Positions 5,401-53,973 of a DNA stretch of 64,000 bases are shown here, one piece after another; the stretch's first letter is position 1, and every line of letters starts with the position of its first letter. Source of the DNA: Vulcanimicrobiota bacterium (lineage in GTDB: Bacteria > Vulcanimicrobiota > Xenobia > Xenobiales > JADMJV01); assembly GCA_019637395.1 (NCBI GenBank), contig JAHBVR010000010.1, positions 248,001 to 312,000 of the forward strand, written 5' to 3'. A program made the position numbers and the translations under genes. The notes beneath the pieces are model-generated. The model worked only from the letters and a program-made list of their open reading frames with translations, ran no database searches and was not told where the DNA came from.

Positions 5401-8400
5401 GCCGCTGCTTCAGTTGCTCGATGATCTGCTCGCGCCGCTGATTCTGCCGTTCGGACGCCTCCAGACGCGACTGTGCCTCGCTCAGCTCTTGCTGCAACGC
5501 CTGCTGGTTCTGCTGGGACAGACTGTTTTCCTGAGCCAGATTATGGCGCAACTGCTGTATCTGGATTTCCAGATTTCGCCCGCGCTCCTGGCTCTGGCGC
5601 AACTGGTCGGACAGCTCCTCGGTGCGGCTTTCCTGCTCCAGCAAAGCCGTGCGCGAATGGTGCAACTGAGCTTCCAAAAGCTCGACCTGCGAGCCCTTCT
5701 GCTCCAGGCGATCGCGCAGCAGCTCCAGGTCGCGCAGTTGCTCTTCGCGCTCCACCACCTCTCGGGCGCGGGCCTCCAACTGCTTTTCCAGTTCGACTTT
5801 CTCGGCGCGTAGGCTGTGCTGCAGATCCATTTGAATCTGCAAGGTGGCCTCGATCTCTTGAAGCCGCTCCAGTTCGGCCGAGAGGCCCTCGCGCAGCTCT
5901 TCCTCGCGCTGCAGACGATGGCTCAGACGATCCACCTCCAGTTGCAACCCGGCCGCCTTCTGAAAGCGCTCTTCCAGCTCGAGGGTGACCTCTTGCAGCC
6001 GAGCCTCCTTACGCTCGGCCTCGGCCCGGGCCAGCTCTTGCTCACGCGCGTTGCGCTCATTCTGCATTTGAGCGTCGCGCAGCTCACCCTGGCGGGCGGC
6101 TATTTCCTGCATGGCCTGATGCAAACGCTGCTTCAACTGGGTGACGATCTGCTCGCGCCGCTGATTCTGCAACTCGGACTGTTCCAAACGTCCCTGAGCC
6201 TCGCTCAGCTCGTTGGTCAACTGCAAGATGGCTTGCTGCGATAACCCGGCCCGTTCCTCGGTGGCATGCAGCTCGGCCAGGGCCCGCTCGGCCCGCTGCT
6301 CCTGCTCCTGCACCCGCAGTTGACTGTCGCGCAACTGCTCCTGGCCGCTCTGCACCGATGCGCGCAGCTCCTCGCCGGCCCCCTCCAGCTCGTCCACCGA
6401 AGCGGCCAGTTCGGCGACCCGACTTTCCAACTCGTCGCGGCGCCGGCGCACCGACTCCAGCTCGCGCTGCACGTCGGCTTCCGCCTGCAGCCGCCTCCCC
6501 AGTTCAGCCCGCTTTGCTTCCAGCTCCAGTTCGCGGGTATCCAGTTGCTCGCGCAAAGTCTGGCGCTCGCGCACTACTTGCTGTAACTCGGCGTGCATTT
6601 CCTCGGCCCGCTGCTTGAGGCCACTCAAGGCGTCGTTGGCCTTGCCGCGATGCTGGCGCAGGGTCTCCCCCAGGCGCTCCAACTGCTCCAGTAGTTGGGC
6701 CTCGCGCTCGCCGTGTTTTCGCTGCAGCTCGGCCGTGTCGGCAGCTAAACGCTGCTGTAACTCGGCCAACTGTTCTTCCAATCCGGCGATCTGCTTCTCG
6801 CGGCGCCCGGTCAGGCCGCGCGCCTGAGCCAGTTCATCCTGTAGCCGTTGCTCCAGCAGTTGGGCCTGCTGTACATCGCTCCAGGCTCCGGCCAGCTCGG
6901 CCCGCAACCGCTCTTCCTGCTCCAGGCCGCCGGCCAACTGCTGTTCCAAATCCCGTTCGCGCGACAGAGAACGCTGTAGATGGGTATCCAGCTCGCGCTC
7001 GCGCTGTTGTGACTTGCTCAGCTGATGGTCCAGCTCGCGTTCACGCAGGCGCACCCGATCCAGCTCGTCTTGAATCTCTTGCTGACCGGCCGCGGCCGCC
7101 TGCAACTGGGCCTGCACTCCGTCCAACTGGCTGCGCATGTTGTGCAGCTCCAACTTGAGCAGGCGCTCGCCCTCGGCTTCCGACTCCAGCTTGTCCACCT
7201 GGGCCAGCGCCTCGGCCAGACGGGCCTGCTGGACCAGCAACTGCTCCCCGGCTTCCTGATAAAGCCGCTGGTGCAGAGCCAACTGATCGCGCAACTGCTC
7301 TCCGAAGGCTTTCTCTTCGCGTAGATGCCCCTGCATCTGTCCCAGCAGCTGCTTGGACTGTCCGAAGCGGGCCACCGCCTGCTGCAACTTCTCCTGTAAT
7401 TGCTCGGCGCGTTCTTGTTCGGCCGCCAGTTGAGCCCGCAATTCCGCCTGAACTTCACTGCCCGCCGCCAGTTCCTCGCGTAACTCCCGCTGCTGCTCGG
7501 CACCTTCTCGCTCCAGGAACTGCGCCTTACTCAACGAGTGGCGCAACTCTTCCAGCAACGACTCCCGGTCACCCAGTCGCCGCTGCAACTCGTCCACATC
7601 CGCCTGGAGCCCGGCCTGGCGTTCCAGCAGTTCGGTCCGTTCGGCTGCGGAAAACTCCCGGACCTCGGCAAGCTCGGCCGCCGTCTCGCGCAGCTTCTGG
7701 CGCACTTTGTGAAACGCCTCGCTGAGCTTGGCCAAAGCGGCCTGGCGGTGATCCAGCTCGGCCTGCAACTGATCGACGTGCTGATCGCGGTTGTCGATCT
7801 CACCGTGCAACTGCTGCACCAGCGAATTCAGCTCCTGGGCCTCACCCGAAGCTTGCTGGAGCTGCTGGCGCAGACTTTCCAACTCGGAGCCGCGCTGCTG
7901 CAACTGTTCCTGCAATTCCTGTTGGGCCTTTTGCCCGCCGCTCCAACGCGCGCGCATTTCCGATTGCTCGAAGCGCATCGCCTGTTGCTGAAGATGTCCC
8001 TCCTCCAGCTCGGCGCGCAGTTCTTCGAGCTCCTCGCGATGCGAGCGCAGCTCGGCCTCCAACTCGCCCACGCGCTGTTCCAGCTCGGCCCGCTCCTGGC
8101 TCAGTTGAGCCACCTGCTTGCGCGAACTCTCCTCGCGCTCGCTCAGTTGGCGGAGATTCGATTCCTGCCACTGGTTTTCGGTTTCCACCTCGGCCAGGCG
8201 TTGTAAATCCCGATCGGCCTGCAGTTGGCGCTGCACGGAATTCTCCAGACGAACTTCCATGTCGGCCAACCGCTGCACCGTCTGCTCCAGCTCGCTCTGC
8301 AAGTGATCGCGCTCGCTCTCCACCTGGGAACGGCGCAGTTCGCCCACCTCCAGGCGTAGCTCCAAAGCCGTTAGCGACTCCTTGAGCTGCTCGCGTTCGC

Positions 8401-11400
8401 TCTGGAGAACGGTATGATCGTGACTGAGCTGGCGCAGCTTATCCAGCAGGGTCTGGCGCTGCTCGGCCAACCGGGCCAACTGGCTGTGGGCTGTCTCCAA
8501 CTGCAGGCGCGCTTGCTCGCGGCCTTGCTGCTCGCCGCGCAACTGCTCTTCCAGTTGGGCGCGCTCCTCGACGCGCCGGGCCAGTTCGCCCTCCACTTCC
8601 AGCAGGCGGGCTTCCTCGTCGCGCAGCCGTTGTTCCAGTTGGCTCTGCCAGAAAGTGGCCTGGCCCAGTTTCGACTCCCAGGCGGTACGCTCGCTTTGCC
8701 GCTCTTCTCCCAAGCGCGCCAGCTCCGCTACGCGCTCCTCTTGCAGCCGGCCCAGTTCCTCGACCCCGCGGCTCTGCTGCTCTTGAGCTTCGGCCACCTC
8801 GCGCTGCAGGACCGCCGCCTGCTGTTCCAGAGCCTGGCGCCGAGCCCTTTCGCTTTCCAGCAGGCCGGTGATGCGCTCCAGTTCACCGCGGCTCTGGTCG
8901 CTCTGCTGCTGTTGCCGCTGCAGCAGCTCGTGCAACTCCAGCAATTGCTCGCCCTGGCCTTCAGCCAGCGCACGGGAGGCGTTCAGGTCCTGCGCGAGCT
9001 GCTGGTTGAGAGCCCGCGTTTGCTGCAGTCCGGCCACCAGCTCCTTGAGCTTGGCTTCCAACTGCTGCCGCTGCTCCAACACCTTTTGCAGCTGGGCCTG
9101 GGCCTGCTGGGACTCCTTGAGACGGCGCTCGGAAAGCTGCTTGTGCTGCTGCTCCATCTCGCCCAGCCGCCGTTGCAGCGCCAGCGACTCCTTGCGCATG
9201 CCGTCGGTGGAGCTGCGCAGGCGGAAGACTTCCTGGGTTTTCTCGGCCAGCTCGCGAGCCAGCCCCTCGGCCCTCCCTTCGGCCTGGCCGTGCCGCTCTT
9301 CCCAGCCGGCCAAATCCTGTTCCAGCGTCTCGATCTGAGCCTGGGCCAGCTGCAGCTCCTCCTGACTGCGATTGAGTTCGCCTTGGCGGACCCGCAACTG
9401 AGAGACCACTTCCTCGTAGCGCCGTGTCTGATCGACCTGAAACTGTTGTTGCTCGGCCAATTCCTGACGGGCCTGCTGGTAGGCCGCCACCAGCTTCTCG
9501 CGGTCGGCCTGGAGTACTTTCAACTGGCTCTTATAACGGCCCAGATTGCTTTCCTGAGCGTTGATTTGTTGCAAACGCGAGGCGCTTTCAGCGGTTTGCT
9601 GGCGCAGTTGTTGCTCCAGCGCCGTCACCGCCGACTGCAGGGCCTCGCGCCGCGCCTGCTCCTTGCCGGCCTCTTCCTGTTCGTTCTGCAGAGCCGCTTC
9701 CAGCTCGAAAACCTGTTCCTGGCGTTCGATCAATTCCTGAGCGATCTGCTCCGCCTGCTGATTGGCCTGGTCCAACTGGCGGCGCACCACCGTAAGCTCG
9801 GCGTCGCCCTGGCGAATCTTCTCCTCGAACTCTTCCAGATCTCGAGCGCGGCGTTCCAGCTCGCCCTGCCAGCGCTCTTTTTCGGCGCGCGCCTGTTCCT
9901 CTAATTCCTGCTGGCGGCGCTCGGCCAGTCCTTGTTCGGCCAAAAGACGCTGTTCCAGCAGTTGGTGCTTTTGCTCCAGCTCCTGGAAGGCCTGATGCTC
10001 CTGTTGGCGCGTTTCAGCCAACCGGTCCAGGCGCCGTTGGCGCCCCCGGCTTTCCTCTTCCAGTTGAGCGATTTGCTCTTGGAGCGAGTGGTGCAACTGC
10101 AGCCATTCGTTCTGCTGCGCCGTGCTGTCCTGAGCCTGCAATTGCAGCTCTCCCAGTTGAAAGCGCAGCTCCTCCATGTCCTCGGCCTGTTGCTGCGTAA
10201 GCTGCTGCGATTCGCGCAGGCGCGCCACCGCTTCCAGCAGCTTCTCTTTGAGAGCGCTCTGAACCTGACCGGCCTTGCTCAGCTCCAGGCGCAATTTCTC
10301 CAACTGTTGCTCGAGCTTACGGCGCTCCTCGCTCTGGGTATCGCGCCACTGTTCCGAAGCGTGCAGAGCTTCTTCCAAATCTTGCAACTGCTGATGGAGC
10401 GACTCCACCTCAGTTCGACTGCGCTGCCACTGTTGGCGCAACTGCTCTTGCTCGGCCAGCGCCTGCGTCCGCTCACCCCGCAACTGGTCGCGCTGGTTTT
10501 CCAATTCGGCCAGTTGTTGGCCGCGCACTTCCAGCTCGGCCTCCAAGGCGGCCACCTGTTTAGCCGAAAGCTCCCGTTGCTTGAGCGCTTCCTGCAGTTG
10601 CTGCTGGCGCGCCGCCAGTTGCAGTTTGGCCTGCTGAAAGGCTCCGCCCACCTGTTGGAGACGTTGGCTGAGCTTCTCGGTCTGGCGCTGCCGCTCCAAA
10701 TCCTGGGCCCGCGCCTGGCGGGCCGCCTGCTCCTGCAGGGCCAACTGCTTCTGTTGCTCCTCCAAAGCTTGCTGCGCCTGGCGTAAAGACTCCTGAAGCG
10801 TTTCGCCCTCGTGCAGGCGGTGCTCCAGTTCTTCGGTTAAAAACTCGATTTCGTGGCGGGTGGAGGCTTTGAGCTGCTCCAACTGCGCGCTCAACTGCGA
10901 GCGCTCCTGGTCCACCCGCTCGGAGGCAGCCTGTAGCTCCTGCCACTGCGCCTGCAGACTCTCTTCCCGCTGCTGGGCCGCCTTGAGTTCTTGCAACCAG
11001 CCTTCGCCCTGGCGGCGGGCCGCCAGCTCCTGCTCCTGAGCCTTTCCCAGTTCTTCCAGGAGAGCCTGATGCTGCTGGTGTTCTTCCTCCAGCACCGCCC
11101 GCAGCGAATCATTTTCCTGGCCGCGCACCTGGGCCACGTTGCGGGCTGCTTCCAGAGCGATGCGCTGATTGCGCACTTCCTCGTTGAGGGCTTGCTGTTT
11201 GGGCACCAACTGATGCAGCTGCAACTGGCGTTTTTCCAGTTCATCCTGCAACTGGCGCCGCTGCGCCTGGGTTTGCTGCAATTCTTGACGCACCGACTGC
11301 AGTTGCGTCCGGGCCTCATCCTGGTGCTGCTGGCTCTCCAGAATCAGGTTGGCCAGTTCCTGGCGCACTGTCAGCAACTGGTTCTCCAGGCCGGCGCCCC

Positions 11401-14400
11401 GCTGGCGTTCCTGCTCCAATTCCGCCTGCACCGCGGAGGCCTGGGCCCAGGACTCTTCCAGGGCCGCCTGCTGCTGGGCCAGTTCCTCTTCCACCATCTG
11501 CAGCTGGCGCCGGGCCGACAGTCGCTCTTGCTTGAGAGCCCCGGCCACCTGGGTGAGTTTCTGTTCCAGGGCCTGACTGCGCTGCTGGCTCTGATTGCGT
11601 TCCAGCTGCACCTTCTCGAAGCGTTCCTGGGCCTGCTGGGCCTTGTAGCGCCATTGCTCCGCCATTTGCTGCTGGCCGTGTTCGGCCGCCAGCCGTTGGT
11701 TTTCACTTTCACTGAGCTGCTCGCTGAGAACGACCAGCTCGTTCTCCAGCTCAGCCCGCAGGCGCTGCTCGCCCTCCAACTGCCCGCGCAGCCCCTCTAC
11801 CTGGGCGGCCAGCGCCTGCTGAGTCGAACGCTCGCGTTCCAGCAACGCCTGCAACTGGCTGGTCTCTTCCCAGCTCTGGTCGAGCGCCAGCGTCTGTGTA
11901 TCCAGTTCCTCGCGCAGGGCGGCCAGCTCGGTATGGGCTTCGCCGATTTCGGCCTGGGCCTGGCTCAGACTCATGGCCAGCTTGGCCCGCTCGCCCTCGG
12001 CTGCTTCCAGGCGGCCGCGCGCCTGGGCCTGCATCTCCTGGAGCAGCTTGCCCAAGCGCTCGCGGTCGGCGGTTAAGCCGGTGACCTGCTCGATGCGCGT
12101 CTTTTTCTCGCGCGCCAACACCTCGACTACCTGCTTGAGCTTGTCCTCCAGGCGCTGCGAGCGTTCCTCGGCCTGCTGGCGCAATTGCTTGAGTTCGGCC
12201 AGTAGCACCAGGCGCTGACGCAACTGCTCACCGGCCTCTTCGGCCGCCTGACGCGCTTCTTCCAGCTCTCCCCGGTGCTCGATTTCCTGGGAATCACGCT
12301 GGACCCGCTGTTCATCGATCTGGTTTTGCAGCAGCACCAGCTGGCTTTCCAGAGCCAGCCGCGCCTGGCGCTCTTTCTCCAACTGCTCGCTGAGCTGGCC
12401 GGCTTCTTCCCAGGATTGGTCAAGGGCCAGCGACTGAGTATCGAATTCTTCTTGGAGTGTCTCCAACTGCCGGCGCAGCTCGCTCAGGCTGCTCTCAGCC
12501 TGCTGCTGATGCTGTTGGGCACTGGCCCGCAGTTCGGTCAGCAGAGCGGTGACGCGCTCATTTTCGGAGGAAAGGAAATTGAGCTGCTCGACCTGGTGCA
12601 GGCGGGCCGCTTTCTCGCGGCCCAATACCTCCACAACCTGCTTGAGCTTCTCTTCCAGCCGCTGGCTGCGTTCTTGAGCCAGGCCGCGCAGTTGTTTCAG
12701 CTCGCCCAGTTGAAGGACCCGTTGAGCCAGTTGATCGTGGAGCTGCTGGCGTTCCTCTTCCAGCTGCAGGATCTGACCTTGCACCTCATCCTGCTCCAGC
12801 TCGTGCAGCTGCTGGGTCTCTACCAACTGGGCCTCTAAAGCCTCGATCTGGCTCTGCAGCTGAAGCTGACCCTCGCCCAACTGAGCGACTTGCGCATCCA
12901 ACGCCGCCTTACGCTGGCGCTCCGCTTCCAGTTGCTCGTGGAGCACCCCCGCTTCTTCCCAGGATTGGTCGAGGGCCAGCGACTGAGTGTCGAATTCTTC
13001 CTGCAGCGTGGCCAGTTCAGCCCGCAGCGCCTCGCGTTCCCCCTCCACCTGGAGGCGCAACTGGCTTTCCTGCTGGAATTGCTGCAACAACTCGGCCCGG
13101 GCCGCCTGCAGTTCGTTCTCGTTTTGCTGGGACTCCAGCAGACGGCTACGCTCGACCCTAAGCCGTTCGGCCGTCTCGAGCAGCTTGTGCTCCAGCTTGT
13201 GCACGCGCAAACGGCTCTGCTCCAGCGAGCGAGCCAGATCGATCAACTGATTTTGTAGCTCGGCCTGCTCCTGACTGTTCTTCTGGAGCTGGCGTTCCAA
13301 TTCCTGACTGGCCTCCAGCCGCTCCAAATCCGACTGTTGCAGCAGCTCTTCAAATTGCTCGCGAATCTCGTCGCGCTCGGCCTGGGTGTTTTTCAGCCCG
13401 GCCTGCAGACTCTGAAGTTGCTTCTCCAGCTCCTGGCGCAGCTTCTTTTGTTCATCCAATTGGGTGGCCAGTTGAGCCGCGTCTTCCCAGGATTGCTCCA
13501 GGGCCAGCGACTGGGTATCGTTCTCATCCCGCAACTCAGCCAGGGCGCGCGCGTCTTCCTCATGACGCGAGCGCGCCTGCTCCAGCTCCAGCGCCAGCCC
13601 CTGGCGTTCCTCAGATCCTTGCTGAACCAGGGCCTTCTCCTGGCGAGCCACTTCCAGCAGTTGCTGCAGCTTCTCTTGCAGTTTGTGGCCACGCGCCCGG
13701 CTCGTATCCAGCTCGCTTTGCAGGCTGGCGATACGCTCCTTGGCCTGATTCCAGCGCTGCTCAAAGGCCACCCGCTTCTGCTCGGAGCTTTCGCTCAGTT
13801 GGGCCAGTTGCTTTTGCAGTTGGTCGCGCTCTTGCTGGCTCAGCTTCAGGCTGTCAGCCAGCTTGTGGTTGGTGGATTCCAGTTCTTCCACCAGATCGGT
13901 CAGGCTCTCGACCTCCTCCCGGTTCAGTTGTTCGCGCTGGCGCATCTGCTCGTGCAGCTCGGCCAGTTGCCGCTCGGCCAGGCGCGTGGCTTCCTGCTGC
14001 TCGACCAGTTGATGCTCGAGCTGGGCGGTGCCTTCTTGACCCACGGCCGCGATGCTCTGCCACTCGCCGCTGACCGTCTGCCAGCTCTCCAACTGCTGGC
14101 GCAACGAGGATTCCAACTCCTGGCTATCTTGTAAATGGCGCTCCACCTGGCTGGCGCGCGCCTGCCACTCTTCCAGGTCATGCTGCTGATCGTGCAGCGA
14201 CTCGGTCTGCTCGCGCAGGCGCTGCACCGCTTCCTGCAGCTTGGACTGAGCCTTGAGGGCGCGTTCCTCCCATTGCTGGCGTAGCGCCTGTTCCTGAGCT
14301 CCGTGTTCGGCCCGCCGGCGCAGTTCGTCCAGCACTTGCTGAGCTTTGTGCAGGCGGCCTTCCAGTTGGACCTTTTCCTGCCGGCTCCGCTCTAATTCCT

Positions 14401-15667
14401 GAGCGGCCTGCGCTCCCTGTTGACTCAGCCTTTGCACCTCTTCGTGCGCTGTCAGCAAGCGCTGCTGCAGTTCACCCGAGGTGCCCACCTGCATCTCCAG
14501 CGATTTGGCCCGCCCCTTGGATTCTTCCAGCTCCTGCTCGAGCCGGCCCAAGTCTTCCCAGGAAGCCGTCAAGGCGAGGTTCTGCTCGTCCAGCTCCAGT
14601 TCCAGCTCGGAAACGCGCTTCTGGCTGGCGCCCAACTCGGCTTCGGCCTTACGCCGCCCTTCTTCCTCGCGCTGGCGGGCCTCCGCTTCCTGGCGCCGGC
14701 CCTCTGCCTCTTGCTGACGGGCTTCCGCCTCCGCCTGGCTCTGCTTGCGCGATTCGCTCAGGGCCAGGATGGCCTGACGCAGCTTGGCTTCCAACTTGCC
14801 GTTGCGCTCGCTCAGGCGCTGCATTTCCTGATGGAGCGCCGGCTCGGCCTCAGCCTGCCTGGCCATCCAGCGTGACAACTCGCCGCGGGCCCCGGCCAGC
14901 TCTTTTTGCGTCTCCGCCAGGCGCTTTTGCAGCTCGCTGAACTCGCCGGCCAGCATCCCCTGCTCGGCCTCCAGGTCCCCCCGCGAGGTCCGGCTCATTT
15001 GTAATTGCTGCAGCAAGGCCTGTTCGCGCTGCTGGCTCAACTCCAACTGGCTTTGCAGCTCTAAAATTTGCTCGCGCAGGCCCTCCAGGATGGGAGACTG
15101 CACTTCCAACTGTTGCAACGACTGGAGTAGCTCGTCCAGGTTGAGCCCGGCTTCATCAAGTTGTCCCTGCAGACGCTCGACCACGCGCAGCCGCCGTTGC
15201 TGTGATTGCAGCTCGTCGCGCAGACCGTGGACCTTATTCTGGCTGTCCTCCAGTAGACCCTGTTGCTGGACCAACTGCTCGCGCACCTGCTGCAGATGGA
15301 GCTCCAGTTGCTGGCGTACCCCCTCGGCCGCCGCCAGTTGGCGAGCCATGTTCTCCTTCTCATCCAGGCTCAGGCGCAGTTGCTGCGCCAATTGCTCCGC
15401 CTGACGCTTGCGCAGCCCCTGTCCCGACTCGCTTTCCGCCAATTTCCGATGCAACTGGGTAAGCTGGGCATCTCGTTCCTGCAAGCGCTGGCCGAGCTGC
15501 TGCAAACGGGCACGCAAAGCAGCACCCTCGGAAGTTTCGACGGGTGCCCAGTCTTCGCGAGTCTCTTCTTCGGGGCGGGGAGCCTGCGACTCACCTTTCA
15601 CCGCGCTGGCGCGCTGCTTGATCGCCTCGAGACGCTCTTTAAGAGAAACAGTACCTTTTTGGGACAC
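2462..15667 (-). CDS. Giant 4401-residue coiled-coil protein
   Basis: One uninterrupted reading frame of 13.2 kb. Almost the whole protein (about residue 60 to 4340) is heptad-type sequence rich in Gln, Glu, Leu, Arg and Ala, with few prolines or aromatics. It is flanked by a short charged N-terminus (MSQKGTVSLKERLEAIKQ) and a proline-rich tail ending in GLELPGF. No signal peptide, membrane segment or enzymatic motif is visible, so it is probably a cytoplasmic fibrous or scaffold protein; a fully helical rod this long would be several hundred nanometres. Two families of long internal repeats are present (listed separately). The start is GTG at 15667; no strong ribosome site precedes it. Its stop overlaps the MFS start. 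Long open frames on the opposite strand are by-products of its codon bias. Function is unknown. Confidence 0.9.
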   Translation of the reverse strand: MSQKGTVSLKERLEAIKQRASAVKGESQAPRPEEETREDWAPVETSEGAALRARLQQLGQRLQERDAQLTQLHRKLAESESGQGLRKRQAEQLAQQLRLSLDEKENMARQLAAAEGVRQQLELHLQQVREQLVQQQGLLEDSQNKVHGLRDELQSQQRRLRVVERLQGQLDEAGLNLDELLQSLQQLEVQSPILEGLREQILELQSQLELSQQREQALLQQLQMSRTSRGDLEAEQGMLAGEFSELQKRLAETQKELAGARGELSRWMARQAEAEPALHQEMQRLSERNGKLEAKLRQAILALSESRKQSQAEAEARQQEAEGRRQEAEARQREEEGRRKAEAELGASQKRVSELELELDEQNLALTASWEDLGRLEQELEESKGRAKSLEMQVGTSGELQQRLLTAHEEVQRLSQQGAQAAQELERSRQEKVQLEGRLHKAQQVLDELRRRAEHGAQEQALRQQWEERALKAQSKLQEAVQRLREQTESLHDQQHDLEEWQARASQVERHLQDSQELESSLRQQLESWQTVSGEWQSIAAVGQEGTAQLEHQLVEQQEATRLAERQLAELHEQMRQREQLNREEVESLTDLVEELESTNHKLADSLKLSQQERDQLQKQLAQLSESSEQKRVAFEQRWNQAKERIASLQSELDTSRARGHKLQEKLQQLLEVARQEKALVQQGSEERQGLALELEQARSRHEEDARALAELRDENDTQSLALEQSWEDAAQLATQLDEQKKLRQELEKQLQSLQAGLKNTQAERDEIREQFEELLQQSDLERLEASQELERQLQKNSQEQAELQNQLIDLARSLEQSRLRVHKLEHKLLETAERLRVERSRLLESQQNENELQAARAELLQQFQQESQLRLQVEGEREALRAELATLQEEFDTQSLALDQSWEEAGVLHEQLEAERQRKAALDAQVAQLGEGQLQLQSQIEALEAQLVETQQLHELEQDEVQGQILQLEEERQQLHDQLAQRVLQLGELKQLRGLAQERSQRLEEKLKQVVEVLGREKAARLHQVEQLNFLSSENERVTALLTELRASAQQHQQQAESSLSELRRQLETLQEEFDTQSLALDQSWEEAGQLSEQLEKERQARLALESQLVLLQNQIDEQRVQRDSQEIEHRGELEEARQAAEEAGEQLRQRLVLLAELKQLRQQAEERSQRLEDKLKQVVEVLAREKKTRIEQVTGLTADRERLGKLLQEMQAQARGRLEAAEGERAKLAMSLSQAQAEIGEAHTELAALREELDTQTLALDQSWEETSQLQALLERERSTQQALAAQVEGLRGQLEGEQRLRAELENELVVLSEQLSESENQRLAAEHGQQQMAEQWRYKAQQAQERFEKVQLERNQSQQRSQALEQKLTQVAGALKQERLSARRQLQMVEEELAQQQAALEESWAQASAVQAELEQERQRGAGLENQLLTVRQELANLILESQQHQDEARTQLQSVRQELQQTQAQRRQLQDELEKRQLQLHQLVPKQQALNEEVRNQRIALEAARNVAQVRGQENDSLRAVLEEEHQQHQALLEELGKAQEQELAARRQGEGWLQELKAAQQREESLQAQWQELQAASERVDQERSQLSAQLEQLKASTRHEIEFLTEELEHRLHEGETLQESLRQAQQALEEQQKQLALQEQAARQARAQDLERQRQTEKLSQRLQQVGGAFQQAKLQLAARQQQLQEALKQRELSAKQVAALEAELEVRGQQLAELENQRDQLRGERTQALAEQEQLRQQWQRSRTEVESLHQQLQDLEEALHASEQWRDTQSEERRKLEQQLEKLRLELSKAGQVQSALKEKLLEAVARLRESQQLTQQQAEDMEELRFQLGELQLQAQDSTAQQNEWLQLHHSLQEQIAQLEEESRGRQRRLDRLAETRQQEHQAFQELEQKHQLLEQRLLAEQGLAERRQQELEEQARAEKERWQGELERRARDLEEFEEKIRQGDAELTVVRRQLDQANQQAEQIAQELIERQEQVFELEAALQNEQEEAGKEQARREALQSAVTALEQQLRQQTAESASRLQQINAQESNLGRYKSQLKVLQADREKLVAAYQQARQELAEQQQFQVDQTRRYEEVVSQLRVRQGELNRSQEELQLAQAQIETLEQDLAGWEERHGQAEGRAEGLARELAEKTQEVFRLRSSTDGMRKESLALQRRLGEMEQQHKQLSERRLKESQQAQAQLQKVLEQRQQLEAKLKELVAGLQQTRALNQQLAQDLNASRALAEGQGEQLLELHELLQRQQQQSDQSRGELERITGLLESERARRQALEQQAAVLQREVAEAQEQQSRGVEELGRLQEERVAELARLGEERQSERTAWESKLGQATFWQSQLEQRLRDEEARLLEVEGELARRVEERAQLEEQLRGEQQGREQARLQLETAHSQLARLAEQRQTLLDKLRQLSHDHTVLQSEREQLKESLTALELRLEVGELRRSQVESERDHLQSELEQTVQRLADMEVRLENSVQRQLQADRDLQRLAEVETENQWQESNLRQLSEREESSRKQVAQLSQERAELEQRVGELEAELRSHREELEELRAELEEGHLQQQAMRFEQSEMRARWSGGQKAQQELQEQLQQRGSELESLRQQLQQASGEAQELNSLVQQLHGEIDNRDQHVDQLQAELDHRQAALAKLSEAFHKVRQKLRETAAELAEVREFSAAERTELLERQAGLQADVDELQRRLGDRESLLEELRHSLSKAQFLEREGAEQQRELREELAAGSEVQAELRAQLAAEQERAEQLQEKLQQAVARFGQSKQLLGQMQGHLREEKAFGEQLRDQLALHQRLYQEAGEQLLVQQARLAEALAQVDKLESEAEGERLLKLELHNMRSQLDGVQAQLQAAAAGQQEIQDELDRVRLRERELDHQLSKSQQRERELDTHLQRSLSRERDLEQQLAGGLEQEERLRAELAGAWSDVQQAQLLEQRLQDELAQARGLTGRREKQIAGLEEQLAELQQRLAADTAELQRKHGEREAQLLEQLERLGETLRQHRGKANDALSGLKQRAEEMHAELQQVVRERQTLREQLDTRELELEAKRAELGRRLQAEADVQRELESVRRRRDELESRVAELAASVDELEGAGEELRASVQSGQEQLRDSQLRVQEQEQRAERALAELHATEERAGLSQQAILQLTNELSEAQGRLEQSELQNQRREQIVTQLKQRLHQAMQEIAARQGELRDAQMQNERNAREQELARAEAERKEARLQEVTLELEERFQKAAGLQLEVDRLSHRLQREEELREGLSAELERLQEIEATLQIQMDLQHSLRAEKVELEKQLEARAREVVEREEQLRDLELLRDRLEQKGSQVELLEAQLHHSRTALLEQESRTEELSDQLRQSQERGRNLEIQIQQLRHNLAQENSLSQQNQQALQQELSEAQSRLEASERQNQRREQIIEQLKQRLAQSTQEMSQRQAELREVQTAGERLGRERDALRSEGEGLRHELQQIQNRLQREEEFRAKLTAELEHLQAAEHQVQVQQSQLHQAHEERLELEARLAERSEELGSRQRDLHERDRDVEELQGLLEGSRNRCELQEAQLTSLRGQLSEQEMRAAEMSEQLRQSQERSRSLDAQLAQLRQRAAQESADSGQTMHRLNTQLEEMTQSLQQAERQGQRLEQVVGQLKDRLGKAMGELSARQSELHEVNVAGERLGRERDQLRQDLETVRQEADARELELNERSSRLAGLQLELDKTQQRLLREEETRASLGRELEQLQVDYDGLQQSLLDQAQLQLERDELLRQKGQLAGELDRALENKAVEAIRWQKAVEENQRRQEDLESRLLVSQQRVEMLGLELEEREQRLTAERKSGQERLNELRARLEKQVFEAQAVTVERESRISQLEREQRSQRDSLEMQLQDMQARRSSLEGELSSLRALNESAQASMQSKLEHLEGRYQELQAQLLDQEEQTHSQRLKVSALEADQVLLKQALHQTEANRDSLQLRLDTLLLDEEQVRAAWLAEQEQTAALRTRLQEGERQRQDLEIQLQEREGVRSQIASLESARRQAEEQATHLREHLEETRQQHELMVSDLKRQLEQGRLRLEREAEFTKGLQDRLKENQAQQIRLQQDQGEARQQLLELQAEQTRLLAELERTRGEALAAETARLQLVRLEELQAQTSRRLAELESEHERALNEAEQMRDEQQALQHKLRETEERARSLQSQLGVAMQQAEEADRLQAMQREHEADLAQLRRELEGRQTEVDGLKTQMRGRGRLQVEIDRLEGENKDLGRRVSEADLEIQRQRLRGDELESELADSRYWRTQAEGRLERSEQALVDLQRELEEARLSRQGDGRVAELEEALQAAGQADQELRARLREAEERLAELRARQQLAEQVRPPAPGVVAPAVSRRKPAPPVLSLLEAPSPERQESRSGGLELPGF
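4740..6170 (-). repeat. ~225-240-residue repeat family in the C-terminal part of the giant coiled coil
   Basis: Three copies of a second long unit are marked by QRREQIVTQLKQRL, QRREQIIEQLKQRL and QRLEQVVGQLKDRL at about residues 3171, 3411 and 3636. The DNA string ctgctcgcgccgctgattct is identical at 6149 and 5426, and a diverged copy starts at 4754; spacings are 723 and 672 bp. Flanking blocks (SDQLRQSQERGRNLE and MSEQLRQSQERSRSLD; LQREEEFRAKL and LREEETRASL) repeat with the same phase, so the gene grew by tandem duplication of a different unit here than in its N-terminal third. Confidence 0.7.
11861..13530 (-). repeat. ~180-residue repeat family in the giant coiled coil (SWEEA marker)
   Basis: Near-identical marker peptides (DTQSLALDQSWEEAGQL and variants) recur at about residues 1261, 1081, 898 and 721. 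In DNA the shared string cttcccag lies at 11866, 12406, 12955 and 13483, giving spacings of 540, 549 and 528 bp, all multiples of three. A more divergent copy (LDEQNLALTASWEDLGRL) at 14554 is 1071 bp, about two units, from the next. Each unit also carries a block like LEEKLKQVVEVLxREK. The periodic tryptophan in an otherwise aromatic-poor coil suggests a regular contact point or stutter. Confidence 0.75.
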
Positions 15668-45477: not shown

Positions 45478-46554
45478 CTATGCAGCCGCCAACCTTGTCA
45501 TGCGCAACAGGTTGTATGCTGCGCTGGTAATGAGAGTTGCCCAACTGGTTCTGACGCGACCGACAAAGCGAGACTTCCGGATCCAACCGATCACTTTCCC
45601 CCACCCGAAGACTTCCTCGACAAGCTTGCGGCGTATCTGGCTCATCTGGTAGCCCTTATGGCGAGTAGTTCGTCGGTCCAGCCCCGGTGTGCATCGACCA
45701 GCGATCTGGGCGATGTGCGGTCCGATATCGAGGGAGCGGAGAAATTTTACGAATCCGCCCGTGTGATATCCCTTGTCGGCGCCGAGAGACTCCATGTTTC
45801 CGCCTGCAGCCAGCCAAGAGCTGATCAGTTCCTCGGCAGCCGAAGGCTCGGTCTGAGTGGCCGCGGTCACCAGCATTCCTACAACCAAGCCATTACGGTT
45901 CTCCATCAGACAGTGGGCGCCGTAGCTGAGCTTGGCTTCTTTGCCAGGACCTTTTCACATTAGTTTCGCTTCCGGGTCTGTGGTCGACTGGTGAGTATCG
46001 TTCGTCCGCTTTTGACCACGATAGTTAACGTCGCCTTTGTCGTCGGGTTTGTCGCCCGAGTTGTCTTTGGGCCGGAAGCTCTTGTGGCTCGCCCACGCTT
46101 CGATCAGGGTGCCATCAACCGTGAAGTGGTCGTCCGATAGCAGACCGCGCTTCTTGGCCATTTCCACGACCTTTGCGAAGAAGCTAAGGGCAATGGAATC
46201 ATCCTTGACGCGGCGTCGGAGTTCGCTGAAACACGTGTGGTCAAAGCTGGATTCGTCCATCGACATGTCCAGGAACCAGCGAAAGAGGATGTTGTAGTCC
46301 AACTGCTCACAGAACTGACGGTCCGAGCGGATAGTGTAGAGCGCAATGAGGAGCATCGCCTTCATAATCGTCTCGGGCGGTATTGACGGACGCCCCGTTG
46401 AGGAATAGAGCGCTTCGAACTCCGGCGACATTTCGAACAGGATCTTCTCAACATCCGCCTTGATGCGCCTCAACGGATGGTTCTTCGGAACGCGCTCCTC
46501 AGGGACTACCCTGTAAGAAAACATCTTGGACTGACGGTCGACTTGGCCCCGCAC
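45478..46554 (-). mobile_element. IS5-like insertion sequence (transposase region only)
   Basis: The extent given is the transposase frame. Neither terminal inverted repeats nor a target-site duplication could be recognised, so the true ends are unknown; they should lie within a few hundred bases either side. The surrounding DNA is gene-poor, as expected for an insertion-tolerant site. Confidence 0.75.
45478..46554 (-). pseudogene. IS5-family DDE transposase interrupted by an in-frame TGA
   Basis: The frame encodes a transposase of about 358 residues: MRGQVDRQSKMFSYRVVPEE, a DUF772-type N-terminal domain (GRPSIPPETIMKAMLLI; NILFRWFLDMSMDESS), first catalytic Asp in FTVDGTLIEAWAS, second in LGADKGYHTGG and Glu in RKLVEEVFGWGK. 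A single TGA at 45957-45955 stops translation after DPEAKLM; the next codon continues in the same frame as KGPGKEAKLSYGAHC, exactly where intact relatives read ...RKGPGKEAKL. A CGA (Arg) to TGA change would explain it. The catalytic residues lie on both sides, so the element is probably inactive unless TGA is read through. Confidence 0.85.
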
Positions 46555-48481: not shown

Positions 48482-48491
48482 GGTTTAGACC

Positions 48492-48515
48492 ATACGTGAC
48501 TATTTAGTCACATAT
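48492..48515. promoter_or_regulatory. Operator upstream of the ArsR-SRPBCC gene
   Basis: A perfect inverted repeat GTGACTA-TT-TAGTCAC occupies 48496-48511; with one mismatch the arms extend to 11 bases (48492-48502 and 48505-48515). It starts about 10 bases upstream of the regulator's ATG and abuts the putative -10, as expected for ArsR-type autorepression. TAGTCAC-like half-sites are common before regulators of this type. Confidence 0.65.
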
Positions 48516-48713
48516 CAAGCACGCCTGTAAATTCCGCAGGTTTCTTAGGATTCTGGTCTTTATGCGGGTAGCCCGCGATTCGCTCTCTACCGGATTGGCG
48601 TGGGCGACAGTCGATAGAAACACGCCCCTGGTGGCGGCCCAGAGCATGTTATGGCCAGTCAGACGCAGCGTGGACAGGAGGAAGATTGGCCCATCCTCAA
48701 CAAAGGTTGTTGC

Positions 48714-51155
48714 ATGCCGGAAAGGGAGTGGTCCACCAAACAACTGGCGGAACTGGTCGGTCTGTCGCGCGCAACCATTCTCAAAGACGTGGCCAAGGGG
48801 CATCTGCGAGCCCACCATGAGGGCCGCAGACTGCTGGTAAAGGAACGCGACTTCAGGGAGTGGCTGAACTGGCGTTCCAGTCAGTTGCCTCAGGCGAATT
48901 TGCGCGGAGAGCGGCTGACCCTGCTCGAGGGGGCCGAGCGTTGCGGATTAGGGCATCATGTCCTGCTGGGGGCGATCGAGCGGGGGCTGTTACCGGCCAG
49001 CAAAAGGCTCGACGGTGGGCCGGCCCGTTGGGTGATTGGAGCGGACGATCTGGCCGATTTTGTGCGCAGCCGGAATCAGGATGTGCATTGGACCGCCAGG
49101 CGCATCGCCCAGGTCACCGGATTGTCTGAAACGAGTGTGAATCGCGCCCTGGCCGACGGTCAGTTAAGCTTTGAGTTACGGACGCACCCCCGGCATGGCC
49201 CGCAACGGGTGGTTTCAGAGGAGCGATTGGTGGCCTGGCTGGAGCAGTCGGCACCGCCCTACTGCAAGCAGGCGGCTCACCTCCCCCACCTGCTCTGGCC
49301 GGAGGAAGCCGCCCAACGGTTCGGGCCGGAGTTGGCGGAAGTGAAGGAGCACCTGGAGACCGGGCTGTTGGCCGGAGTGGCTGGCCGGGTGACCCGCTAC
49401 GGATTGGACGAATGGCTGCGCGCCCAGGGGCTCTCTCCTTCCTGGCAGTTGGACGAGGACAGCCAATGGATCAGCGTCGGCCGGGCCGCCGAATTGACCG
49501 GCACTCCCATCGTCACTCTTCAGGCCTGGGTGGCCCGAGGCTTGATCCCGCGGCAGCGCCGGGGGCGGCGCTGGCTGCTGGAACGAAAAAGCTTATTGGA
49601 CCAATACGACCGCTACCACCGCAGGGGTTACGAGCATTATTTAACGCCGGGACAGGCGGCCCGCCGCCATGGTGTGCCGGTGACGCGGTTGCTCGAGGCT
49701 ATGAAAGAGGGACACCTGCCTTTTCACCTGCTGGGCCAGAAAAATGGCTACTGGGGCCGCTATCTGGAGCCGGGCGAGCTGCAAGAGTGGTTGGCCCGGC
49801 CCTTTCAGCGCAAGAGCAGCAAGCGCCGGCCGGCCGAATCGTTGCCCCTGGATTGCCCGGCCTTTCTGACCCAGACCCAGGCCGGGCGGGCCACCAACCT
49901 GGGCGCTAAAGCCGTGGCGCGGGCGCTGGCTCAGGGAAAGCTGGAGGCGATCGCCGGTCCCGATGGTTCGCCACGGGTAAAACGCGAATCCCTGGCAGCC
50001 TGGTTGGCTCAGGTAAGGGTGGAGGCGGGCGAAAGCGAGGAGCCGGACCAGCTATCTCTGCGCCGGGCTGCTCAGGAGTGCGCCTACAGCGAGGAGGAGT
50101 TGCGCCGCTATGTAAACACCGGCCAGCTGCCGACCGAGCGAAACTCGCGGGGACGCCTGGTCCTGCGGCGGCGCGTCTGGCAAAAGTGGCTGAAGAGCCG
50201 CCGCCACGCCAGTCAGCTTGACCCGGAGCAGCGTTACTGGAGCCTCGAGGAGATCGCGGAAAAAACCGGGATGCTGCGCGACTCGGTGGGGGCGGCCATC
50301 CGTCGCAAACAGTTGAAGGCCCAGTTGGTGCAGGTACCGGATTCGGCGCGCCCGGCCTACCGGGTGGCCGATCGGCACCTCAAGTCCTGGCTCAAGAAAC
50401 GCGACCGAGGTCTGCCGGCGGTGCAGCCGCGGGGAGAAGTGCTGACTCTGGAGCGGGCGGTGGAGCACTCCGGAATGACGCGCGAACAGCTCTATTATGC
50501 CGTGCGCCATGGCGAGCTGCCGGCCGCCAAGGAGCACTACCGTGGCGCCAAGCGCTGGCTCTTCGGAACAATCGATCTGGACGACTGGGTGCGCCGGCGC
50601 TCCCAGCCCAAAGACTGGACCTGCCGCTCCCTGGCCGAGTTTGCGGGCGTTTCCTACGCCGCCGTGCTGGCCGCCGAAGACCGGGGTGAGCTGAAGTTAG
50701 ATGACTCGGGTGTGCTGGACTGGCTGATACACCGGTCTCCTCCCTATCGGCCGGAAGTGGCCCACCTGGAGAACTGTGTCAGCTTCAAGGCGGCGCTCAA
50801 ACTGAGCCGTGTGCTCAGACCCGTGCTGGTCAAGGCGCTCCAGTCCGGTGAACTGGGCGCCCTGGTGGAGCAGAATCAGGGCAGTCCACGCTACTACATA
50901 CCGCGGTTTCAACTGGATAGCTGGCTGGAGAGCCGTGGCCTGGCTCCGTCGTGGCAGCTCGCCGCCGAAACCGAGTGGCTGCGCGTGGCCGATGCCGCCA
51001 CCTTGACGGGCTATGCCCGGCCCACCATCCAGCTCTGGATTCGCCAGGGTAAAGTGGTGAGCCGCCGACGCGGCCGGCGCTGGCTGGTGGAGCGCCAGAG
51101 CCTGCTGGCTCAGGCAGAGGCCACCTCCCCCAGGACGGACAGGAATCAAGCCTAG
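48714..51155 (+). CDS. Tandem array of 13 excisionase/MerR-like DNA-binding modules
   Basis: An 813-residue protein built almost entirely of about thirteen 45-57-residue modules, each with a T-x-x-x-A-A-x-x-x-G-x-x-x-x-x-V helix-turn-helix, a (R/A)G-x-L-P turn, a short wing and a (D/E)-x-L-x-x-W-L end. Examples are WSTKQLAELVGLSRATI, HWTARRIAQVTGLSETSV, ISVGRAAELTGTPIVTL, LTPGQAARRHGVPVTRLL, WSLEEIAEKTGMLRDSV and LRVADAATLTGYARPTI. Approximate residues: 6-53, 67-121, 125-179, 190-239, 251-301, 309-364, 383-434, 445-496, 507-563, 575-630, 634-676, 685-742, 754-801. Start 48714 follows AAAGG at seven bases; an ATG at 48651 is in frame but has no ribosome site. Excisionase and MerR proteins normally carry one such module. 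No other domain is seen. It is divergent from the ArsR-type gene. Confidence 0.85.
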   Translation: MPEREWSTKQLAELVGLSRATILKDVAKGHLRAHHEGRRLLVKERDFREWLNWRSSQLPQANLRGERLTLLEGAERCGLGHHVLLGAIERGLLPASKRLDGGPARWVIGADDLADFVRSRNQDVHWTARRIAQVTGLSETSVNRALADGQLSFELRTHPRHGPQRVVSEERLVAWLEQSAPPYCKQAAHLPHLLWPEEAAQRFGPELAEVKEHLETGLLAGVAGRVTRYGLDEWLRAQGLSPSWQLDEDSQWISVGRAAELTGTPIVTLQAWVARGLIPRQRRGRRWLLERKSLLDQYDRYHRRGYEHYLTPGQAARRHGVPVTRLLEAMKEGHLPFHLLGQKNGYWGRYLEPGELQEWLARPFQRKSSKRRPAESLPLDCPAFLTQTQAGRATNLGAKAVARALAQGKLEAIAGPDGSPRVKRESLAAWLAQVRVEAGESEEPDQLSLRRAAQECAYSEEELRRYVNTGQLPTERNSRGRLVLRRRVWQKWLKSRRHASQLDPEQRYWSLEEIAEKTGMLRDSVGAAIRRKQLKAQLVQVPDSARPAYRVADRHLKSWLKKRDRGLPAVQPRGEVLTLERAVEHSGMTREQLYYAVRHGELPAAKEHYRGAKRWLFGTIDLDDWVRRRSQPKDWTCRSLAEFAGVSYAAVLAAEDRGELKLDDSGVLDWLIHRSPPYRPEVAHLENCVSFKAALKLSRVLRPVLVKALQSGELGALVEQNQGSPRYYIPRFQLDSWLESRGLAPSWQLAAETEWLRVADAATLTGYARPTIQLWIRQGKVVSRRRGRRWLVERQSLLAQAEATSPRTDRNQA
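48912..51116 (+). repeat. Duplicated four-module block inside the DNA-binding array
   Basis: Modules 2-5 (48912-49616) and 10-13 (50436-51116) correspond one to one, including linkers: APPYCKQAAHL against SPPYRPEVAHL, GLSPSWQLDEDSQW against GLAPSWQLAAETEW, and RRGRRWLLERKSLL against RRGRRWLVERQSLL. The 235- and 227-residue blocks therefore arose by duplication of a four-module unit. Modules 6-9 between them may be a third, more diverged copy (13 = 1 + 3x4), which is inference. Confidence 0.75.
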
Positions 51156-51824: not shown

Positions 51825-52892
51825 TTGTTCAAACATTTTTTAATAGCCGTGACATTTTTGATTCCGCTGGCCTGGGCCCAACAAGCCGACGAATTAGAGG
51901 ACCGTCTGAAACTGGAGATCGTCAACGTCCAGGTCGGGCCAGAACTGGTGAAGCCCCTGGTCAGTGGCGAATCAGCTCCTCTGCTCAAGGAAATGGGCGA
52001 TGTTCGCAAACAAATTGAAGAGGAGCGGGGCTTCGTTCTGCCAGGGGTTCGATTTCACGATAACCTCAGCTTGAAGCCCAAGGAATGGGTGATCTACCTT
52101 CGCGGCCAGGAGGTGGCGCGCGGTCAGGTAGAGCCGAAGTTGCTGCTGGCGGCGGCCCGGAATCCGGCTTCCCTGCGAGGCTTACCCGGCCTGCCTCGAG
52201 AAGAAAAAATCGCCGGACGAACCGCCAAATGGATTGCGCCGGCCGGACGGGCCAGAGCGGAAAAAGCCGGGTGCATCGTCTTGACCCCCGAACTCTATAT
52301 CGGTTGGTATCTGAAGAATGCTGTGATTTCGCATGCCTGGCAGGTTTTCGGCCGTCAGGAGATGCTGGTGCTGATGCCCGAGTTGTTGGCCAGCACCTTT
52401 AACACTGACCTGGCCGCCCAGGACCGCTGTTTGGAGGTTTGCGAGAATTTGCTTCGGGAGCGCCTGCCCCTGCGAGTCAAATCGGTAGCCGAGTTGGTGC
52501 TGGACAAGTCCCAGCCGCGTCAGGACGCCGATAGTCTGACCGAGGTGGCGCGCGGCAGTATCAAAACCTGGATTTGTGAAGAAGCAGCCCTGCCCGACAC
52601 CAAGACGATTCCAGCGGTTGTTTTAAGCCCGGCCTGGGAAGCGAAATTGCGGGCGGCGGTCCACTTCGGACCTGATGGACTGGTTATTCGCGACGCCTTC
52701 AATCTAGAACAAGAGCTGGAGAAGCCATTGAGCGCTGCGCTGGCCAAACAGCCGGACGCAGTTCTGTGCGTGCCCGACGATCTGCGGCTGGCGGTGCGCC
52801 GTTTGAGCGAGCGTCAATTCTCTGATTTCAGCGTGCTGGCTCAATCCGAAATCGCTGCCGGCTATTCCGCCAAGAAAGTCCAGGAAATTTAG
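51825..52892 (+). CDS. Exported protein resembling the cytoplasmic domain of FlhA/SctV (first copy)
   Basis: A 355-residue protein. MFKHFLIAVTFLIPLAWAQQ is a Sec signal peptide with cleavage after AWA. The mature part follows the C-terminal (cytoplasmic ring) domain of FlhA/InvA/SctV export-gate proteins: EERGFVLPGVRFHDNLSLKP at residues 67-86, VIYLRGQEVARGQVEP just after, AEKAGCIVLTPELYIGWYLK at about 144-163, FGRQEMLVLMPELL, then NLLRERLPLRVKSVAELVLD and a terminal VLAQSEIAAGYSAKKVQEI. The eight-helix membrane part and FHIPEP motif of true FlhA are absent. GGGAGGG sits five bases before the TTG start. It is followed one base after its stop by a second protein of the same design. An exported location for this fold is unexpected; role unknown. 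Confidence 0.85.
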   Translation: MFKHFLIAVTFLIPLAWAQQADELEDRLKLEIVNVQVGPELVKPLVSGESAPLLKEMGDVRKQIEEERGFVLPGVRFHDNLSLKPKEWVIYLRGQEVARGQVEPKLLLAAARNPASLRGLPGLPREEKIAGRTAKWIAPAGRARAEKAGCIVLTPELYIGWYLKNAVISHAWQVFGRQEMLVLMPELLASTFNTDLAAQDRCLEVCENLLRERLPLRVKSVAELVLDKSQPRQDADSLTEVARGSIKTWICEEAALPDTKTIPAVVLSPAWEAKLRAAVHFGPDGLVIRDAFNLEQELEKPLSAALAKQPDAVLCVPDDLRLAVRRLSERQFSDFSVLAQSEIAAGYSAKKVQEI

Positions 52893-52893
52893 C

Positions 52894-53973
52894 ATGTTCA
52901 AAATTTGCTTATTTTTGCTGCTCTGGCTGAGCCTCCCGGCGCTGGCTGAACGTCCTGAAGTGGAAAAGCTGGTAAATAACCAGAGCTTCGAGACGCGTTT
53001 AGGCAGCGCCCTCAGCCCTCTCACCGAGCAAGGTTTTTCTCCCAAACTGGCCTCCATTCGACGCCATGTAGCCGGCGAACTCGGCTGGGTCGTGCCGGGG
53101 ACCCTGTTCACTCCGGCTGCTTCTCTGCCCCCTAATGAATATCAGATTCTATTCCGGGGTCAGGTGGTGGGCCAGGGCAAGGTGGAACCAGGGCAGTTGC
53201 TGGCCATCGGACCCGAGTCGAAGCTCATCCAGCTCAGCGGAGTTCTCATCCAGGATCCGACTTACGGTATGCCGGGCAAATGGGTGCCTCAGGCCGATAA
53301 GGCAAAAGCCGAAAAGCTCGGTTGCCTGGTCTTTGATCCGGTTTCGGTGTGGGCCACTCACTTGACGGAACTGATCAGAGCTCACGCTGCTGAATATTAT
53401 AGTAGCGATGACCTCACGGCGGCCCTGGCCATCTTGCAGCCGGAGCAGCCGGCCCTGGTCCATCGGTTCCACAGCGATCCGGCAACTTTTCAACGGCTGT
53501 TGGCGGTCGTGCGCAATCTATTAACGGAGCGAGTATGCGTGCGCGATTTGGGGACCATTGGCGAGGTGGTCATCCATTCGCCGCATCAGGATCCGGATCG
53601 CTTGAGTGAGGCCGCGCGTGTCAAGTTGGCCGGCCTGATCCTGGACGACCTGGCCAACGAAAAGAAGATTCAGGTGGTGCGGGTGGGAGCCAGGCTCGAG
53701 GCCGCCGTCGTCAAGCTGGGCAGTTATACCGCCCAGGGCCTGACGATATCCGAAAGCCCCGATATCAATGATCAGATCCTGCCAGCTATCAACACCGCGG
53801 TGGAAAGAATGACGGAGAAGGGGCTACAACCGGTATTGGTGACCACTGCGGCGGCGCGGCTGATTCTGCGCCGGGTGACGCTCAAGGAGTATCCGAATCT
53901 GGTGGTTTTGTCCCGCAACGAATTGACGCCGTATTATTCCGTCGAGTCAGCCGGAGTGATCGAACTCAAGTAG
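52894..53973 (+). CDS. Exported protein resembling the cytoplasmic domain of FlhA/SctV (second copy)
   Basis: A 359-residue paralog of the preceding protein with the better-preserved FlhA-C sequence. Signal peptide MFKICLFLLLWLSLPALA with cleavage after ALA. Then LASIRRHVAGELGWVVPG (about residues 52-69), SLPPNEYQILFRGQVVGQGK (78-97), YGMPGKWV, AEKLGCLVFDPVSVWATHLT (139-158) with the family-typical DPxxVxATHLTE, IRAHAAEYYSSDDL, VRNLLTERVCVRDLGTIGEV and a closing NELTPYYSVESAGVIELK. No membrane export-gate region. Tandem paralogs one base apart must be co-expressed and may form a mixed ring. No flagellar or type III genes occur in this window. Confidence 0.88.
   Translation: MFKICLFLLLWLSLPALAERPEVEKLVNNQSFETRLGSALSPLTEQGFSPKLASIRRHVAGELGWVVPGTLFTPAASLPPNEYQILFRGQVVGQGKVEPGQLLAIGPESKLIQLSGVLIQDPTYGMPGKWVPQADKAKAEKLGCLVFDPVSVWATHLTELIRAHAAEYYSSDDLTAALAILQPEQPALVHRFHSDPATFQRLLAVVRNLLTERVCVRDLGTIGEVVIHSPHQDPDRLSEAARVKLAGLILDDLANEKKIQVVRVGARLEAAVVKLGSYTAQGLTISESPDINDQILPAINTAVERMTEKGLQPVLVTTAAARLILRRVTLKEYPNLVVLSRNELTPYYSVESAGVIELK

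Follow-up and report, generated by a model that had tools for sequence, protein, structure and literature searches.

Recombination directionality factors (RDFs) bind DNA head-to-tail; their tandem sites are spaced by one turn, specificity is low, and cooperativity between neighbors is strong (PMC7498355). BldC also binds head-to-tail, on 9-bp direct repeats, and bends the DNA (PMC5859096); the same arrangement, with about one protein per helical turn, weak specificity for any single site, and bending of the DNA, has been described for Xis, Apl, and BldC proteins (PMC7498355, PMC5859096, PMC11963761). The phage excisionases and RDFs (lambda and Pukovnik Xis, phage 186 Apl, RdfS; PMC7498355, PMC11963761) consist of a single winged helix-turn-helix (wHTH) module, several copies of which assemble side by side on DNA; they work with a recombinase. 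BldC is a stand-alone MerR-like wHTH of 68 residues without an effector domain, and the length of its oligomer is set by the DNA, not by the gene (PMC5859096). On their own, excisionase and BldC proteins show weak binding, and they rely on their neighbors. Two MerR/Xis-type modules per chain occur in TraN of pIP501, for which specific sites are known (PMC10877727), and in actinophage proteins. One such actinophage protein (L092, 1219-1647; two-module MerR/HTH_17) is encoded near RuvC-like and WhiB genes and has matches in 92 phage records. The eukaryotic proteins UFL1/UFBP1 and RPC62 contain chains of PCI-like winged helices, which make protein contacts in UFL1; the winged-helix repeats of UFL1 have a scaffold role (PMC9627666).

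The window, that is, the whole stretch of 64,000 nucleotides analyzed here (G000:C2:248001-312000, genome size 7.66 Mb), encodes an 813-residue protein in which modules of the excisionase fold stand side by side on one chain, 13 in number and with no recombinase among the flanking genes scanned. As in BldC, they are MerR-like and lack an effector domain. Single modules are common and pairs are known, so that the fold of this array is familiar; the number and order of its modules are unusual. A literature search of limited reach returned no paper on a tandem HTH array longer than a pair. The initial annotation had assumed that such domains normally occur once per protein. This is overstated in view of TraN and of two-module HTH proteins in about 70 actinophage records, in one of which Pfam confirmed both modules. 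What is new are relatives with eight and five modules in the same genus and a module tree that is position-specific across these proteins.

Thirteen Modules on One Chain

The full open reading frame spans 48651..51155. An AAAGG seven bases upstream favors the ATG at 48714 as the start codon. GC content by codon position (0.71/0.49/0.78) is normal and marks the frame as genuine. The Pfam family HTH_17 (PF12728) matches the protein over 10 stretches (E = 2.9e-49, 165.6 bits, curated cut-off 27), and the NCBIfam family TIGR01764 "excise" matches over six (E = 5.4e-31, 106.7 bits, cut-off 28.8). Excisionase families are the best named sequence matches, and the Pfam scan found no domain other than HTH type. 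Scanned individually, 10 of the 13 modules match HTH_17 (w1, 2, 3, 5, 6, 7, 8, 10, 12, and 13), while w4, w9, and w11 give no match; w1, w5, w10, and w13 alone pass the curated cut-off of 27 bits (Table 1).

Table 1. Array gene, modules, and adjoining intergenic region (window coordinates; module values are HTH_17 E-values and bit scores unless stated)
Feature	Position	Strand	Description	Basis or remark
Divergent intergenic region	48482..48713	.	232 bp	length would accommodate a 13-site operator
Array gene	48714..51155	+	13 HTH_17-type wHTH modules, 813 aa	ORF could open at 48651
D-E-F-G block	48891..49634	+	four modules	duplicate of 50439-51152
w1	48714..48890	+	good match (1.2e-9, 38.7 bits); basic wing EGRR	single-module scan
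w2	48891..49082	+	type D, copy of w10; 0.0065, 17.1 bits	tree with w10, g4
w3	49083..49286	+	type E, copy of w11; 6.7e-4, 20.3 bits; terminal linker PPYCKQAAHLP	scan, tree
w4	49287..49463	+	type F, copy of w12; shortened wing, acidic, net charge -6; terminal linker GLSPSWQ
w5	49464..49634	+	type G, copy of w13; 1.9e-7 (31.7 bits), MerR 3.4e-6; basic wing QRRGRR
w6	49635..49859	+	position type "?"; 22.0 bits; long linker after w6
w7	49860..50048	+	type A; 19.7 bits
w8	50049..50231	+	type B; 0.065 (13.9 bits), MerR_1 0.02	scan, tree
w9	50232..50438	+	type C; complete wHTH in model	model, tree
w10	50439..50612	+	type D; 1.6e-6, 28.7 bits	single-module scan
w11	50613..50771	+	type E; wing deleted, acidic; linker PPYRPEVAHLE	model, scan
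w12	50772..50972	+	type F; 0.014, 16.1 bits; terminal linker GLAPSWQ
w13	50973..51152	+	type G; strongest match (2.9e-10, 40.7 bits); wing RRRGRR

An AlphaFold2 model of the whole protein, built from a four-row alignment (mean pLDDT 69.6), repeats the pattern strand-helix-helix-strand-strand-helix 13 times, with a shortened wing in w4 and none in w11, which confirms the module count. Modeling w8-w13 separately gave a firmer result (pLDDT 81), and the relative placement of the modules is fixed by neither model (pTM 0.46 for this part, 0.22 for the full protein). The modules appear as separate beads rather than as one globule. By profile and fold, the protein thus belongs to the HTH_17/excisionase family, with w4 and w11 lacking a full wing, and the description in the initial annotation of 13 excisionase/MerR-type modules and no other domain holds.

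Module w6 superposes on BldC (6AMK; Z 8.1, 51 residues, 1.6 Å) and w7 on Pukovnik Xis (Z 8.8, 56 residues, 1.8 Å). Other modules superpose on MtaN, RacA, and further MerR proteins, several of them solved on DNA. These Z values are middling, yet they agree with the sequence matches. Module and linker together measure 53-75 residues. The linkers in the model comprise about 4-22 residues, so neighboring modules must sit close. The linkers contain invariant motifs around PYRKEAAHLP and GLPPSWQ, a hint that modules pack specifically against one another and are not independent beads on DNA. E-F-G may accordingly form one packed unit, which would fit a stiff, DNA-following rod and a protein scaffold alike.

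Several known classes do not accommodate the protein. It is not a MerR regulator: the modules run to the C-terminus, with no coiled coil or effector domain there. The BldC family proper consists of single small wHTH proteins. The match to the MADS defense protein Mad1 reaches 29.2 bits against an NCBIfam equivalog cut-off of 80, and the flanks scanned contain no MADS genes. PADLOC returned a generic HTH match only.

Relatives and Growth of the Array

The search for relatives yielded three further family genes, each from this genus: one of 517 residues with eight modules in G003, and two with five modules, of 318 residues elsewhere in the window's own genome (G000) and of 316 residues in G001. 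The family thus occurs in three of five species of the genus, and the other two have no member. When 149 genomes of the phylum were searched with a two-module profile, both modules were covered only within this family, and other matches covered essentially one; no other array appeared among the up to 30 candidates scored per genome, a search that weak arrays could escape. The sole match in a profile search of genome contigs was contig JAFEBA010000009.1 (SZAS-1/EREM-KAN-1). Phages and plasmids contained no relative at E 1e-3, and the matches examined at E 10 carry one or two such modules only; viral contigs contained none. Among the viral fold matches is A0A6J5L5K8, an HTH protein of 370 residues from a phage, in which several modules may be present. 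The module profile also matched an HTH-like repeat in PDB 8VD6 ("CAP REPEAT"), which looks like a designed protein and, unlike the array, has exact 33-residue repeats.

Modules 2-5 correspond to modules 10-13 with 37.6% identity over 226 codons, and in the module score matrix each of these pairs is top-scoring or nearly so. The same matrix pairs w7-w13 in order with modules g1-g7 of the eight-module protein, and w8, w9, w11, and w12 with s1-s4 of a five-module protein. A maximum-likelihood tree of the 31 modules from all four proteins groups them by position, with eight label changes (minimum 7, shuffled 22.1) and moderate support for single groups (81-95). In this tree, s5/t5 do not join the w13 group, and no position type could be given to w1, w6, or g8. 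The order of types is ?-D-E-F-G-?-A-B-C-D-E-F-G in the 13-module protein, A-B-C-D-E-F-G-? in the eight-module protein, and B-C-E-F-G in the five-module proteins, where the last G is assigned by position, not by the tree. Since modules group by position across proteins, their order and identity are old and fixed. The proposed growth by unit duplication is borne out as the doubling of one four-module block, D-E-F-G, and the comparison of module number among relatives gave 13, 8, and 5. From sequence distances, the duplication dates to about the time when the 13- and eight-module proteins split, since the two copies are about equally far from each other and from the G003 protein.

The five-module orthologues are 78% identical, with dN 0.15 and a near-saturated dS of about 2, a picture that resembles the neighboring MtfA peptidase. 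These values place the five-module gene under strong purifying selection; the 13-module gene is represented by one sequence, and the selection figures concern its five-module relative.

Genomic Neighborhoods

An ArsR-type/AHSA1 gene is transcribed divergently from the array gene, and two FHIPEP-domain genes lie downstream of the array. An operator search found no periodic direct repeats in the divergent intergenic region. The only clear repeat there is a palindrome (48492-48515, GTGACTA-TT-TAGTCAC) at the beginning of the ArsR/AHSA1 gene, likely that gene's own operator. The FHIPEP pair is also present in G001 with no array beside it, so the position of the 13-module gene is not shared. Both FHIPEP genes (51825-53973, adjacent) encode the C-terminal FHIPEP (FlhA-type) part only, each with an apparent signal peptide, and have many paralogues in the genus. 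For a cytoplasmic domain of an export gate, apparent transport to the outside would be odd. Elsewhere in the window, an open reading frame of 4401 residues occupies 2462-15667 on the minus strand.

G000 and G001 both have the five-module gene between phosphotransferase and M90 (MtfA-type) peptidase genes. The M90 peptidase gene of G003 and G004 stands without the phosphotransferase and five-module neighbors within the stretch read. The eight-module gene and the end of a TPR-repeat gene share about 20 bases (L071, 12482-15174), so the two probably form one operon. No tyrosine or serine integrase/recombinase was found among the flanking genes scanned at the three array loci; for an RDF, a cognate recombinase gene would be expected nearby.

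Charge and Contact Residues

The 13-module protein carries a net charge of +35 (pI 10.1), of which +32 resides in recognition helix and wing (permutation within modules, p 0.021). The eight-module relative shows the same bias (p 0.018). The five-module relatives show none (p 0.45) and have net charges of +5 and 0. This test used four proteins and one approximate division of columns set by eye, and p-values near 0.02 are modest. The recognition helices of the five-module relatives (L002, 994-1950; L005, 1468-2418) contain acidic residues. Their modules have possibly been turned to another use. Because these relatives are near neutral and show no bias, the family may originally have served some function other than DNA binding.

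At the positions through which BldC contacts DNA (PMC5859096), residues vary among the modules. Closest to BldC are w13, with Trp at the W31 position, and w5; both have a basic wing. Two modules at least, w4 and w11, seem incapable of DNA binding, and w4 is probably structural.

Possible Modes of Action

The reading that we favor, at about an even chance, is a filament of the Xis/BldC type whose units are covalently joined head-to-tail and which coats or bends DNA with low sequence specificity. With the modules joined on one chain, binding should be by avidity; this would replace cooperativity between neighbors and permit binding at low protein concentration. Roughly 8-10 of the 13 modules would sit on DNA, one per turn, with the remainder (at least w4 and w11) as spacers. 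The coated or bent stretch would then measure about 80-130 bp; a value of 9-10.5 bp for each of 8-13 modules, estimated from Xis/BldC-type systems, gives about 70-135 bp. Such a protein might serve as a local regulator of DNA architecture or transcription. The profile and structural matches, the charge on recognition helices and wings of the 13- and eight-module proteins, the short linkers, the module tree, and the selection on the five-module gene favor this reading; the near-neutral five-module relatives, the linker motifs, the loosely fixed module placement, and the whole-length Foldseek matches speak against it.

A less probable, though tenable, proposal is an ordinary site-specific regulator in which DNA reading falls to a few modules (w1, w5, w8, and w13), the rest being degenerate spacers, so that the site does not scale with module number. 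The short list of modules above the HTH_17 cut-off, the defective wings of w4 and w11, the wide variation of recognition helices, and the divergent promoter region upstream of the gene all speak for it. Against it, all position types except the end modules are kept across proteins, and at least eight modules contribute to the positive charge on the DNA face.

It is rather unlikely that the array is a protein-protein scaffold like UFL1/UFBP1 or RPC62 that has lost DNA binding or keeps it in a secondary role. The best whole-length Foldseek matches are indeed UFL1-type tandem winged helices and RPC62, but they are weak (E about 4e-4 to 3e-3), and no sequence relation to these proteins was found. 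The invariant linkers, the near-neutral five-module relatives with their acidic helices, and the overlap of the eight-module gene with a TPR gene are consistent with a scaffold. The basic DNA faces of the 13- and eight-module proteins argue against it, as does the closer similarity of the modules to DNA-bound MerR/Xis proteins than to PCI-type winged helices.

We consider improbable a natural DNA-reading array, the HTH counterpart of TALE repeats, in which types A-G each read a short stretch in order and module number and order set the length and sequence of the site. The array had been called programmable-looking. The differing base-contact positions, the apparently nonbinding w4 and w11, and the acidic recognition helices of the five-module relatives do not support this impression.

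A decaying repeat that grew by drift and has no present function would agree with the patchy occurrence in the genus and the lost wing of w11, but it is very doubtful given the intact frames of 813, 517, and 318/316 residues and the purifying selection on the five-module gene. Least credible is a multidomain excisionase of a mobile element, and for the mobile-element role suggested earlier we found no positive evidence: the excisionase families among the best matches, a broken IS transposase upstream of the array (45478-46554, two frames with DUF772 and DDE parts), and the missing gene beside the FHIPEP pair in G001 are outweighed by the lack of a recombinase among the genes scanned, of relatives in phages, plasmids, and viral contigs, and by the shared place of the five-module gene in two species.

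Implications

Natural chains of 5, 8, and 13 pre-joined modules provide a direct way to test site length, bending, and specificity against module number without concentration-driven assembly. Modules that read DNA in order would make the family a new class of reader for long DNA sites, whereas modules that do not bind DNA would make it a winged-helix scaffold of bacteria.
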